64,000 bases of DNA from Taenia hydatigena (taxonomy: Eukaryota; Platyhelminthes; Cestoda; Cyclophyllidea; Taeniidae): NCBI GenBank assembly GCA_036345935.2, contig JADWOT020000007.1:6526644-6590643 (forward strand), given 5' to 3'. Below are positions 57,367-64,000 of the stretch, piece by piece. Position 1 is the first letter of the stretch. Each line of letters starts with the position of its first letter. A program made the translations under genes and the position numbers. The notes beneath the pieces are model-generated. The model ran no database searches. It saw only the letters and a list, made by a program, of their open reading frames with translations, and was not told the origin of the DNA.

Positions 57367-57466
57367 NNNNNNNNNNNNNNNNNNNNNNNNNNNNNNNNNN
57401 NNNNNNNNNNNNNNNNNNNNNNNNNNNNNNNNNNNNNNNNNNNNNNNNNNNNNNNNNNNNNNNNNN
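57367..57466. other. assembly gap, 100 N
   Basis: Exactly 100 N, the conventional placeholder for a gap of unknown size between contigs. The true distance and orientation across this point are uncertain. Confidence 0.99.
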
Positions 57467-59552
57467 TATTCTAAACTTTGTTTCCAAGCCGAACGAAACA
57501 CCAAGTCAAATGCACTGCCAAGATGGATCACTGACGTTGGTGTCAAGCATCACCTCAATCGCGTCGAATGCTGGCGACTGGCATGGTTAGCTCGTGGGCA
57601 CTTCTTGAGGCACTGATCACGATGTGATGGCAGGTGCATGAGGTTACCAAGGGGCGCGTCGGCGACAACACTCGAAAGAAAAGGAGGGCAATGCACGCTA
57701 ACGGATGACGCCACTTGATTTTTCGTGAAAATATTGAGGTTGCTTAACACCGCCTGGTTTGAATGGACGAAATAAGTACGTGCTGCTCAAATGTCACATT
57801 AGAAATTAGTTATCTTTCATTGACCGAATCGACCGTCGTAGAAACACATCTTCCAAAATGTCGCGTGCACTGTTTCCATGGCGGCTACTGAGTGGATTGC
57901 CTGCTTGTCTAGTAAATGGGACTCCGTGAGTAACGACGTATGGTAAATATATGTTGTGAAGTGGTGCGCAGGGTAGACTACGTAGAGGGAAAAAAGTACC
58001 ACATAGCGTGTCATCCGAAAAGCCTTTGTAGTGCAAACTTAAGTAGTGAACGTTCAAATAGACTAGCCTTCCCAATGTAAGGCTTCATTAATTTAATGTG
58101 CCACTTACAACGCATTTCTAAAACAAACTCAGTAAGCATTTTCACAGCAAGCAGAATTTTGCTCCAGTTACCAAGATTCGTAAAGCAAACATCTATAGTA
58201 CAGCAGACATGTGGGATAATGATGCTGTTTGCGTGGTCAATTGTTATCCATCGCATGGTTTACACAGTTTGAGTTTTGCTAGATCTGTCTTGAATTTGGT
58301 GAAAAGGTTGGAATATTTCGTACATTGGTAAACTCAGGGCAAATAATCAGTCGCAATCTGTGTTCCAACATGGCTTAACAAAGTAAAATCCATCCTCCGA
58401 CATTTAGCAAACATTCTATGGGCTGATGCGGTCCCTTGATTTTCTCATGCTCTTAAAAGGAGGAAGAGATGGCATCATTCCCACTGCCTTCATCACTCAC
58501 CTCAGCTTTAAATAGCATTGATATCGTCTACTGGTGTAACATTAGTAACATTTAGCTTTAAGGCCTATGGAATCAATGCTAATCAAATCCACAATTTGTT
58601 GCTACATGTGGTGTGCTCGCCGTCATCTCAAATTGAAACATGCAGATGCTGTCCAGGCAGGTCTTGTCATTGTCACTTGGATTCCATGTCCGTTATTTAC
58701 ACCTCCATTAGGGCGGAGGGCATTTCCTCACTTCTGTCGCACCTACTTAGGAACCCAAGATTACGTTAGGCCATGTATTGCTTCAGACCTACCCTTAGAG
58801 ATCTGCTCTCTCACTGACCTGCCACGAGCAATTGATAGGGTCAACACAGCGGTCTGCCAATTCTAACACGTTTGAGGCTCTACCTTAGAAGCTGCAGCAC
58901 GGTAGGTGTGCATAAGTCGAATGACTTCTTTTATAACCATGTGATGATGTCAAAAATATGCGATGAATGTGAAAGACTTTTAAATTGTGACTGAATATGA
59001 GATATTTCGACTAGATCCGGTCAAACCAAATTCTTATCTCATTGCAAATGAGGGTTTTTGTTATACTGACCACATCCAATTATTAGCAATATTTACATTC
59101 ATTATAACGGTACCATAGAGCAGATTGCACACAGAAGAGGTATATAAAGGCGCACATTCCATAGGTTTGTGGGTCAAAACATCGTTACAGACTAGGCTTT
59201 CCTCTTTTTATGCAGCAAGCATGAGCATAAATTAAAAAAATTTGCAGTTCATTGTGCGTGGCCCAATACAGTCTGCAAGGGAACAGAGTTGATCATCAAT
59301 GAGAGTAGGCAAGCATGCCAAAATACGTATTTGGCATTTAGTAAATGTAGGCTGCGATTGAAACAAACAGCAACTTTGGTTAACGGGATTTTAAACTGTA
59401 GTGATGGGCATGAATGCAACCGTTAATAATATGCTCGGTTTCACGTAAAGGCTTACTTAAGCATTAGGACCATTGAAGTGATTAAGACCACAGTCATGAA
59501 GTAGTGAGGGTAAATTTTGTCAGTTCTGACGATCGCAAAAGTTGACGTGAAA
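57467..59552. other. non-coding stretch, two unresolved minus-strand frames
   Basis: On the minus strand, frames at 58011-58256 and 57806-58075 abut in different phases and could be one frameshifted old gene. No motif allows a name. The rest holds nothing recognised, and no clear AATAAA was found just downstream of the FN3 gene. Confidence 0.3.
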
Positions 59553-59710
59553 CTATTTACAGTGGTCATGGTGGGATTTGTGACCACGTGAAGCAGTCAT
59601 CGAAGGAGTTGAAGGCAAATCAGCTATCGCAATGGTCGTGGGCATCTTGCCATTCGCTTCGATTGTGGAAGTCCTTGTGGACATTTCAGTCGTAGATGGC
59701 ACACCTTCCT
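59553..59710 (-). CDS. FN3 gene C-terminal exon
   Basis: Encodes about 51 residues rich in Thr and Ser (VPSTTEMSTRTST, PTTIAIADLPSTPSMTAS) ending in a His/Lys cluster and a TAG stop. It may be an O-glycosylated tail. The acceptor is uncertain: TTGGAAG|AG is in phase and so is one 6 nt later, but neither has a good pyrimidine tract. Confidence 0.5.
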
Positions 59711-62388
59711 CTTCCAACCGAATTTTTAAATTCATTCAAATTTTTAAATCTCCACCTTCCAACTAAATCCTAAACTGTTATATTAAAAGGTGTAAAAAGA
59801 CTCACTTCTGTCTAAGCGGGGTGTAGTTACTTCCATTTCGGTGCTGCAGGGGCTAACAAAGGCGTGTTCGTCCATATCACCCGACACTGTGTATGCACTG
59901 ACACCTGCTTTGATAGTTTGCCCTGCCTCCAACTTCTCGAAGGTATATATTTCGTTTGGGGGAGCAAAGATAACCTGCTGTCAACTATTGTTGACCTTTC
60001 AGTAGATTTGAGAGTGTTCAATACGTCCGGCGGGTTGGGGTGGCGGATACTAGGTCATGTATACTGTGGAAGAGTTGATTGCTTCAAGTTGCACATTCCG
60101 GGGAACAGTGGGACCTGCACAAATGACAATGCATCAATGAGTAATTATTTTGAAGGGAAGTGAGGGCGACGAATTGTTATTTTTCAGTGTACACTCACTT
60201 GTCTCTATATGAACGAGGATGGAGGTGAAATAAAAGAGCAATGGAGTGAATGATAAATCTGAGCTACCGAATTCATTTAGCGGATAATGAAATAAGGCGA
60301 GGAAGTTATTTTGGTAGTAACAGAGGGACACCATGGTTGGCTTTTTCTTTGAAACCTATCGAGTGCTAACTAATAGTCTAGCATTCAAAATAGCGGGTAG
60401 AGAAGACTCACCTCCTTTAAAGGGTGGAGTAGTTATGTTCCCTTTGCTGCTAGGAGGGCCAATGAGATCACTTTTGTCCTCATCATCGGAACGAGTTTGT
60501 GCGCTAACTCTCGCTACAATGGTCTGCCCTGGCCCTAAATTCTTGAAGGCATAGTTCTGAGTTTGGGGAAGGGTAATAATACCCTGCGGCTTATTGTCGA
60601 GACTCCAAGAGACGCAATAATGGACAATAGGTCCGACAAGTCGAGGTGGCGGACCCCATCTCATGCGCACTGTGTAAGAGTCGATTGCTTCAAGCTGCAC
60701 ATCCTGAGGAGTGGTAGGATCTGCACAGGTGAAAATGCATCAATGTGTCATTTTGCATGGGAGATTGATGAATGTCTACTTGTTCCAGTGTGCTCCCTCG
60801 TGTCTCCACATAAATGAGAATGGGTATAAAATGGCGAAGCGTTAGAGTACCGCCATATTGGATGCGTCCTATTCAAAGTTCGTGTCGATTTTATGGCAGG
60901 GAATGGTGAGAGTGGGTCTGCATAATTAATTCCGGGACCAGCAAATTGATTGGCTGCTTTGAATACATCCAGTAAGTTTCAGGCAATAGTTAGCATTCAA
61001 TAAACGAGTAGAGCAACTTACCGGCTTTAGAACCTAGTGTAATTGCTTTCACTCCGCTGCTGGCTGAAGTGTATGCACCAACTTGGGCTATAATAGTTTG
61101 TCCTGGCTTTAAATTTTTGAAGGTGCAGTTCTGCATTGGAGGGAGAATAATTACGCCTTGCCAACTATTATCGAGGCGCCAAAAGATGCAGTATTTAATA
61201 ATACGCCCATCAGGCTGAAGCGGTGGATCCCACTTCATGCGCATCGTGCGAGAGTCGATCGCTTCAAGTTTCACATTTCAGGGAACAGTACGATCTGCAC
61301 GCATGAAAATGCAACAATATGCCACAAAACACGGGAGGCCAATGACTTCTCATTTGTCCTACTGTGCTCTCACGTGTCTCCATGCAATTCGGGTTGGGTG
61401 CCCAATGGTCAAGTATTAGGCCTAATAAAAAATGTCAACTGCTTGATGCATTAAAAGTGTGAAGACATGTGGTTGGGAAGAAGACAGACCTGTGTATACC
61501 ACTTCACGTACAAATGCGCTAGAAAAGGCTCAAAAATACCATGGTAATACGAGTTCGTCGATGTGACTGCATGTTACTGATGCTGACACTTTTTCACATG
61601 ATCAACTCGCATTTCAGCAGTAAGAAAACTTGCTGTTATCCACTCATTTTATCATTTAGGGTTTTCGAAGTTTATTTTGAGCTCTAAAAATAACAAGCCA
61701 TTCTTCGACGCCTCCTAAATTGTGTCAAACCAAGCAAACAGCAAAATGTCACAGAAGGGGTCGCTTCTGAATCCCGCCTACGTATGTCTGCGGATTTAGA
61801 AACAGACAACCCTTTAAGTTCAAGAACTTTGCCATTTTGTTCATACTTCGGCATCCGATTCCAGTTCAGGAAGAACCAACTACGCATACATGTGTAGTTT
61901 GACAAAGAATTCTTCTATTCATGTGTTGGACACGAGCTATATTTGATAGCCCACAACATTCTGTTTTTTCTGCAGACTACGTATTGTAACGGCTTCATCA
62001 AATTGATTCACCTCATTTGCCGCACGCGCTTTTAACTAAAAGCATTGGAAAGACCACGAAGAAAATGAACAATGGCGGAAAAACATTGTAAAATAGGGTT
62101 GAATCGAGCAAAGCCTACTCGGCGGCATTTAGTTGATTTGGCCGTGATGAGACGTGAATTATAGCAACGCAATGCGATGCGTCGTAATGGGATGCAATTT
62201 AGCAAAAAAAAACACTACCTGCGATTCCCAAATTGGTAAATTGAGCAAATATCCTTATTCGTCAAGTATCTTTGCTTGTGTAGTAGGCAGGGTAAAGCAT
62301 TGAAAGGCACCTTACCTGTCACCACTGTGAGTCCATCATGCAGGATGAAGGCTGTCAACAAAATGATGCGCAGTCGAAGCGACATCAT
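59553..62388 (-). CDS. secreted FN3-domain protein gene, five candidate exons
   Basis: The gene reads on the minus strand: signal-peptide exon (62316-62388), three tandem FN3 exons (61022-61294, 60412-60720, 59806-60114) and a Thr/Ser-rich C-terminal exon (59553 to about 59710). All donors are GT and all acceptors AG, and every junction is phase 1, so any FN3 exon can be skipped without a frame change. FN3-1 and FN3-3 contain stop codons; FN3-2 is open. Joining exon 1, FN3-2 and the tail gives 540 nt, an open product of 179 residues with one signal peptide and one FN3 domain. That plan resembles the secreted single-FN3 oncosphere antigens of tapeworms, an inference from architecture only. No transmembrane segment or GPI signal is visible. 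The final acceptor is weak (purine-rich) and could be 6 nt further on. Confidence 0.7.
59806..60114 (-). pseudogene. FN3 exon 3 of 3, three stop codons
   Basis: 309 nt, the same length and phase as FN3-2, bounded by GTGCAG|GT and AGAA|GTGAGT. Homology is plain (VQLEAINSSTVYMT, YPPPQPAGRIEH, YTFEKLEAGQT, VSAYT). Stops lie at 60050-60052 (TAG), 59999-60001 (TGA) and 59981-59983 (TGA). Each replaces a tryptophan codon of a sister exon. No frameshift has accumulated and the splice sites remain intact. Confidence 0.75.
60412..60720 (-). CDS. FN3 exon 2 of 3, intact
   Basis: 309 nt, phase 1 at both ends, bounded by CTGTGCAG|AT and GGAG|GTGAGT. It encodes DPTTPQDVQLEAIDS, then MRWGPPP, IVHYCVSWSLDN, the FKNLGPGQT turn before the F strand, and VSAQT. 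These are the conserved Trp, Tyr and Leu-x-Pro-Gly positions of the FN3 family. A Ser/Thr/Pro-rich end follows the domain. It is the only one of the three FN3 exons without a stop and so is the likely coding module. Confidence 0.8.
61022..61294 (-). pseudogene. FN3 exon 1 of 3, closed by a stop codon
   Basis: The exon runs from GTGCAG|AT to GCCG|GTAAG, both phase 1, 273 nt. It encodes a clear FN3 fold: KLEAIDS, MKWDPP (the B-strand Trp and PP), IIKYCIFW, TFKNLKPGQT and AYT. A TGA at 61278-61280, six codons in, lies where the sister exons have CGG or CAG. Used as an exon it would truncate the protein at once. A cryptic acceptor after TTGAAG would bypass the stop in frame but lacks a pyrimidine tract. 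Confidence 0.7.
62316..62388 (-). CDS. FN3 gene exon 1, signal peptide
   Basis: It starts with two adjacent ATG codons (62388 and 62385). It encodes an N-terminal basic stretch (MMSLRLR), a hydrophobic core (IILLTAFIL) and a small polar end, a typical secretory signal. It ends at ACAG with the donor GTAAGG directly behind, after the first base of a codon. I chose the ATG at 62388 because the open frame upstream of it lacks another ATG. Confidence 0.75.
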
Positions 62389-64000
62389 CAAGCCGGAAAT
62401 GAATGGCAATTACAGCATACGCACGGTGTGCTTATGCATACGTTGTGAACCAATGTTTTTGACCCACAAAAATAAGCTGTACATTTATGCTCGTGCTGTG
62501 ACCTCACACACCTCATGAGCGATTGTGCCGAGGATGCTGCCATCAATAAATGGTGTTCACATTCATCTTTGTGAGTGTTTTTGTTTTTGTTGGCGAAGAA
62601 ATGCGATATCGCAAGAGGATTAATGCTGAAATTAGGACCGCGGAAAGAAGTAGGACTAAAGTGCATTAAACGCTTTCTGAAGACCAAACATTTCGACTCA
62701 GAGGCTTTGCCATGTTTACTAGAGGACCGGTAGCAGATCCTCCTAATGAATGCTTTCCACTTTTCTACCCGGAGCAGCAAATCTTTAACATCTATATGTC
62801 AATATGCTTTGGCTGTGTATCGCCCGTGTTTTCAACTGCCTTATTATGTGCGCCTGTGCCAATGGAAATTATTTGAGCGGTAAAAACGAATACCAATGTT
62901 GGCTTTTAGATAAAATTTGGTCACTCTTAAGCAAAGCTGCATTATTCGGTGAAAGAACTAAGGATTCAATTAATAGTCGATTAATTTTAACGGCCTTTGC
63001 AGTATTGCCCTTGCCCTTCAAGAATTGCTTCTGAAGCGGTCAAATATGCTCAGATTTGGGGTTACGATATGTTGCGCACACACATTATGCTGCCAAGGAA
63101 CCTGCAGCTACTTGTTCTTCGATAGCGCAAAAAAATTACGCTCGCGAAATGACCTCTATACTTTCACATCATCCTTTACTGTTTCTTGTCCTTATCCCAC
63201 TTTTTAACTTTACTTTTAGTTTTAACAGGTGCATACATGGCCGCTGACTTTAGCTCTGCGTGAACGACCGATCAACCTGAGGCAGACTTGCGAACTGCTC
63301 ACTGTAATGACTCGTGCGTGATCCATTAACATTAATTATCAGCGCGCTCATCAAAAAGGCAGACTAACGCGTTTCCATAAGAGAAGCAGTAGGCACCAGG
63401 CACTAGGCGGTAGAATGTCCTGACGTCGACGTGGATCACTTCGGGGCAAGACCAAAGACCACTCAGTCAGTTGCTTGGTTATGACAATGATTCGATAAAC
63501 ATCTTGTATACCTTAGATGATGGTCATGGGAAAATCTTGGCATTTCATGCACTTGTCGATAATCTGTTCACACATGAGGAGGACATTAAGACTCACAAAA
63601 TACCCTGGTCGTTGCGAGTAACACAGGCAATCTCCAGTCAAATAGCATCCTCTTCGGCTAGTTTCCCCCGTATTGCAGATGCTTGAAACTATATCGACTG
63701 ACCCAATAATCTCTTATTAATTCCAGATTAATCAATTACCTCTGGACAAGCAGATACGGCCGCTATTTAATGACACTAATTGCATAATCACTTGGCATAA
63801 TTTGAGGTGCCGTCAAGATTGGGGCCAACTAAGGACATATTGAAAAATGCACCTTTAGTGGCATATCGGCCTTCCAAAAGAACAGGATCATTTGCGCTTG
63901 GTCAACATCTGTGAATACCAGACATGATGGACCGTAAAGAGCCCTAATTGATAGCAATCTTTACCTTATGGCATCGTTTTCTCTCGGGGAGAAAAGTAAA
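62389..64000. other. presumed upstream region of the FN3 gene, otherwise empty
   Basis: On the minus strand an ATTGG box (inverted CCAAT) and a weak TATA-like GCATAAATG lie roughly 60-110 nt upstream of the start codon; neither is decisive. Further out nothing is recognised; the frames at 62804-63686 are short and mutually overlapping. Confidence 0.3.

Follow-up and report, generated by a model that had tools for sequence, protein, structure and literature searches.

In this study, we analysed a fibronectin type III (FN3) gene copy in a window of Taenia hydatigena DNA, the window being the whole stretch of 64,000 nucleotides at G000:C7:6526644-6590643 of a 306 Mb genome. The window copy lies on the minus strand from 62388 to 59553 and comprises a putative signal exon, three FN3 exons (F1, F2 and F3) and a tail exon, within a duplicated block:

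62316..62388, minus strand: putative signal-peptide exon (E1), 73 nt, ATGATG at its start, donor GTAAGG
61022..61294, minus strand: FN3 exon F1, 273 nt, TGA at codon 5 (61280)
60412..60720, minus strand: FN3 exon F2, 309 nt, open over its whole length
59806..60114, minus strand: FN3 exon F3, 309 nt, in-frame TAG 60052, TGA 60001 and TGA 59983
59553..59710, minus strand: Ser/Thr-rich tail exon, 158 nt, terminating at TAG
57467..64000, no strand assigned: duplicated block common to the window copy and L009, L010 and L011 (98.1, 97.5 and 96.8%)

The block runs past the right edge of the window, and on the left the matches end at an assembly gap (57367-57466). In the window copy, AG/GT borders are found at each of the eight splice sites, and each FN3 exon has a length that is a multiple of three and phase-1 borders. 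The units are spaced by 606 and 574 nt and show repeat identities of 72% and 65% against the reference copy. Exon coordinates and repeat identity thus confirm the layout given in the first-pass annotation, with three FN3 exons at these spacings, phase-1 borders throughout, stops in F1 and F3, an open F2 and intact splice sites. The product it had proposed for skipping of F1 and F3, made up of putative signal, F2 and tail, indeed amounts to 179 residues by length. The Pfam fn3 profile matched F2 (1.2e-9) and the post-stop part of F1 (7.1e-9) and gave no match on the short part of F3 beyond its last stop; the identity of F3 rests on alignment to open F3 exons of other loci. No frameshift was found in F3 of the window copy, and its F1 is 36 nt shorter than in open sister loci.

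Related loci were collected by genome searches with F2 and with an open F3, in which 150 of 596 and 150 of 597 candidate places were scored, respectively; both searches gave the same picture, and locus counts are lower bounds. Several loci with FN3 exons ~600 nt apart were found among the 150 of 596 F2 places scored. Twenty regions were taken, 18 of which are FN3 loci, and the 11 closest were aligned with the window copy, giving 12 loci in total. The alignment, the event counts and the dN/dS values, the last computed for 20 chosen pairs, do not include seven loci that were too divergent or frameshifted (L019, L020, L022-L025 and L027). In this divergent group F2 carries a TAG in six of the seven (L019, L020 and L022-L025), and two of these, L019 and L020, have an open F3, the reverse of the pattern in the window. 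Exon E1 shows 77-100% amino acid identity in nine of the 11 aligned relatives, with no match in the other two, L010 and L018.

The tail exon has the same end in seven of the 12 aligned loci and stops 16 codons earlier in the other five (L013, L014, L016, L017 and L018), so that the tail stop is no lesion peculiar to the window copy. A tail frameshift, suspected because a hydrophobic run follows in another frame, was ruled out by the same comparison. This run (59552-59453, minus strand) lies after the tail TAG; in 10 of the 12 aligned loci it is in frame with the tail, and in the window copy and L010 it is in another frame; in the loci seen, at least one stop precedes it. It may represent an anchor that was lost or a last exon so far overlooked.

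The alignable introns of the three units had initially been taken as a mark of recent duplication. The likeness of the introns as such was reproduced: in the window copy, I2 and I3 align at 70% (z=21.8), and the last 300 nt of I1 align at 67% with I2 (z=13.3) and at 60% with I3 (z=5.5), each against shuffled controls. In L012 and L013, I1 and I3 were no more alike than expected by chance (z 0.1 and 0.4). However, the units of the window copy have only 66% of bases in common in their exons and 60-70% in their introns, and this intron difference of 30-40% speaks against a recent event. Between loci, noncoding gene parts differ from the window copy by mostly 1-3% in L009, L010 and L011, where the short intron 4 reaches 6%, by ~10-14% in L012 and by 16-28% in L013, figures which leave out the stretch lost by L010. 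An unrooted tree was built with 33 exons of the 12 loci and four outside FN3s, without F1 of L018 and F1 and F2 of L021; in it, the F1, F2 and F3 exons each form their own split (support 0.99, 0.89 and 0.94). Since exon positions separate in the tree and the units are more diverged than the loci, unit duplication predates the spread of the loci. Judged from these divergences, the triplication is old and not recent.

L009, L010 and L011 match the window, at the identities listed above, over blocks of ~5-8 kb, lengths which are limited by the stretch fetched and by the assembly gap of the window. Together with the window copy they occupy separate places on one scaffold, two per orientation. The F1 TGA and the 36-nt F1 deletion are common to all four copies, and the F3 TAG (60052) and TGA (59983) are common to these four and L021. 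In addition, L009 and L011 have extra stops in F1, and the window copy has one in F3 (60001), seen in this copy only; the four differ mutually by ~1-4% in most parts. As in duplicated pseudogenes, disabling lesions are thus common to the copies and accumulating. L011 has GC as its F1 donor, the only changed F1 donor among the four. L010 (G000:C7:5985600-5995500) is without an equivalent of window 62253-65035 and has therefore lost exon 1 and upstream DNA; its F2 is open despite this loss. The fifth locus, L021 (G000:C7:986500-996400), is a mosaic: its distance from the window copy is 2-8% over the part running from intron 2 through the tail and 11-17% over the rest (250-column windows). Its F2 is broken by one stop and a frame change. 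Gene conversion is likely, in a tract that carries the F3 stops. A further place, L029 (G000:C7:3026500-3032500), holds a duplicate of the 3' flank and of the end of the tail, adjoining a long run of N, because of which FN3 exons are not visible there.

In five of the 12 aligned loci (L012, L013, L014, L015 and L016), exon 1 is present and each of the three FN3 exons is open. In five of the six possible cross-clade pairs among them, dN/dS is 0.18-0.28 for F1, 0.38-0.46 for F2 and 0.14-0.18 for F3. The close pair L012-L015 gives 0.89, 0.47 and 0.28, and L014-L016 gives 0.61 for F2 on three changes; these ratios are pairwise counts with common branches and no confidence limits, and close pairs have few changes and are more variable. 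The values point to a maintained three-domain protein at the open loci. On another scaffold, C4, two loci likewise have three open FN3 exons, preceded by an exon that resembles the signal exon (52% identity, E=0.001). An alternative suggestion of the first-pass annotation, a gene dying after expansion from one to three domains, is supported as to decay and not supported as to a fresh expansion, with five of 12 loci open at dN/dS of 0.14-0.46.

Among the four copies, 9 of 309 sites are variable in F2, compared with 68 of 1945 in noncoding parts (Fisher p=0.74; low power) and 31 of 582 in F1 and F3 together (p=0.13 vs F2). The F2 changes comprise five nonsynonymous and four synonymous ones, against 23 and eight in F1 and F3 (p=0.41), and their types do not depart significantly from site expectation (binomial p=0.14; nine variable sites only). 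The nonsynonymous share is lowest in F2, though not significantly so. New stops within the group account for 3 of 31 changes in F1 and F3 and for none of nine in F2 (p=1). About 4.4% of random F2 substitutions create a stop, and in simulations with point substitutions only, without indels, F2 is still open with a probability of 0.91 after two substitutions, 0.68 after nine and 0.42 after 20; the substitutions private to F2 of the window copy number two. Over the 12 aligned loci, F2 is open in 11, F1 in five and F3 in six. Counted as independent events, which were assigned by hand and without the in-frame F1 deletion, F2 took one of seven first hits (p=0.26) or two of 12 disabling events (p=0.18). 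Between the window copy and the open loci, dN/dS is 0.29-0.65 for F2, 0.33-0.78 for F1 and 0.24-0.57 for F3. As values below 1 are also seen in the stop-bearing F1 and F3, these ratios reflect the history before the loss. These tests gave no significant sign of selection on F2 after loss of F1 and F3 (p=0.74, 0.14 and 0.41; nine variable sites), and weak selection would escape samples this small. L017 (G000:C10:2638400-2648300) has its own stops in F1 and F3 with an open F2, like the window copy.

By analogy, the gene plan resembles that of taeniid FN3 oncosphere antigens, with a putative signal exon, phase-1 FN3 exons, a short tail exon and fn3 profile matches in F1 and F2. For EG95, a gene plan of signal exon, FN3 exon and third exon is described, in a multigene family with a pseudogene, and alternative splicing was not found according to that account (PMC2671473). 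EG95/EM95 of Echinococcus and the 16k/18k antigens of Taenia follow the same three-part plan of signal, one FN3 and third exon; Tm16 and Tm18 are described with a signal and one FN3 domain (PMC2706984). The EG95 alignment spans 70, 306 and 95 sites (PMC2671473), compared with 73, 309 and 158 nt in the window copy. EG95 has one FN3 and is GPI-anchored; the gene studied here has three FN3, and no hydrophobic end precedes the stop in its tail frame. Taenia 45W/TSOL45 shares with this gene the presence of more than one FN3 per protein, and in TSOL45 the domain number varies by splicing: TSOL45-1A is reported with two FN3 domains, TSOL45-1B without exon II, and the mRNAs of TSOL45 code for two FN3 domains, for one or for none (PMC3383989). 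However, two domains in TSOL45-1A stand against three in the maintained plan, the window copy carries stops, and the likeness described here is one of gene plan. Like the window copy, the eg95-7 pseudogene and an eg95 of E. vogeli whose exon 1 carries a stop (PMC2671473) belong to a multigene family of FN3 antigens and are broken; unlike theirs as described, the lesions of the window copy are common to several dispersed block copies. A protein search with F2 for a named family gave no candidate, and neither did a search of plasmid DNA, where a hit was hardly to be expected; five PDB matches were obtained, to receptor phosphatases and Dscam. A limited literature search combining three fibronectin type III with Taenia and oncosphere yielded no hit. 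For the T. hydatigena genome, an assembly of 308.54 Mb is reported, followed by a Hi-C version, and surface antigens such as TSOL16B and Tsol15 are described as expanded; by term counts, fibronectin, EG95 and pseudogene do not occur in the main text of that paper (PMC8384839).

The feature in the window is real, and the explanation that we favour is mostly ordinary: an old three-FN3 gene was duplicated, and this copy of it is broken. We consider it quite probable that it represents a pseudogene of a multicopy lineage, derived from a secreted three-FN3 gene of 45W/EG95-like build, in which F2 is open by chance. Common lesions, block duplication, an F2 rate close to that of noncoding DNA and open sister loci are direct observations, from which we infer the absence of a product of the window copy and the order of events. 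We propose a model in which a three-domain gene would have arisen by the old exon triplication, with other loci appearing still to maintain it. One copy would have lost its coding function through the F1 stop and deletion and the F3 stops, and the broken copy would then have come to be present as DNA blocks of several kb at at least four places including the window, with gene conversion probably behind the mosaic fifth locus and every block copy drifting. F2 would be open owing to few substitutions since the loss rather than to protection, and in a transcript with every exon translation would end after ~29 residues. The open middle exon needs no special cause.

Survival by exon skipping, as the first-pass annotation had put forward, would omit F1 and F3 and yield the signal/FN3/tail protein on the single-domain plan of EG95. 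The three FN3 exons are symmetrical phase-1 units, so that the frame is kept on skipping, and the window copy, L009 and L011 have exon 1 together with an open F2 and tail. L017 shows the same stop pattern via its own stops, and the reported skipping of FN3 exons in T. solium TSOL45 (PMC3383989) makes the idea conceivable here. However, F1 and F3 of the window copy still have AG at their acceptors and GT at their donors, so that skipping is not forced, and the selection tests lend survival by this route no support, with F2 changing at about the noncoding rate, open in L010 although exon 1 is absent and broken in L021. We therefore regard rescue by skipping as unlikely. Regulated skipping, with the middle domain as sole product and the outer stops as a switch, inclusion giving nothing and skipping a single-domain secreted protein, appears quite unlikely; if true, L017 would be a second, independent case.

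The decayed gene might also still matter, either as a non-coding RNA or as a gene-conversion donor diversifying the open three-FN3 genes. The L021 mosaic, with 2-8% versus 11-17% distance from the window copy, means that tracts seem to move between copies, but this sole mosaic joins two broken lineages, and in the parts compared the window group had no tract in common with any open locus, which renders such a role improbable. If the assembly were at fault, the near-identical copies would be haplotypes of a single locus or stretches of it entered more than once, or the stops would be errors; this idea could draw on an assembly with 1354 contigs and gaps and on the 60001 stop being seen in one copy only. 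We consider this very improbable, as the copies lie at separate scaffold places, two per orientation, are ~1-4% apart and have their own lesions; that stops found at four or five separate places are sequencing errors likewise seems unlikely. T. hydatigena appears to keep a dispersed three-FN3 family, on the plan of the taeniid vaccine antigens, beside spreading broken copies. Antigen-gene counts in this genome should separate open from broken loci, and the open three-domain loci deserve study more than the window copy, with the reported TSOL45 precedent of two, one or no FN3 in mind.

Two minor observations concern the surroundings of the family. The upstream flank of L026 equivalent to window 65345-70010 has matches in L022, L023, L024, L025 and L027, with ~65-77% likeness even among divergent FN3 loci, and L026 has only two ORFs of at least 110 aa. 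On scaffold C4, the three-FN3 loci L032 and L033 (G000:C4:1538500-1550500) closely resemble each other and are oppositely oriented, each of their FN3 exons being open, and more loci of the three-FN3 type appear at C4:1497000-1508000 in the F2 and F3 search tables.
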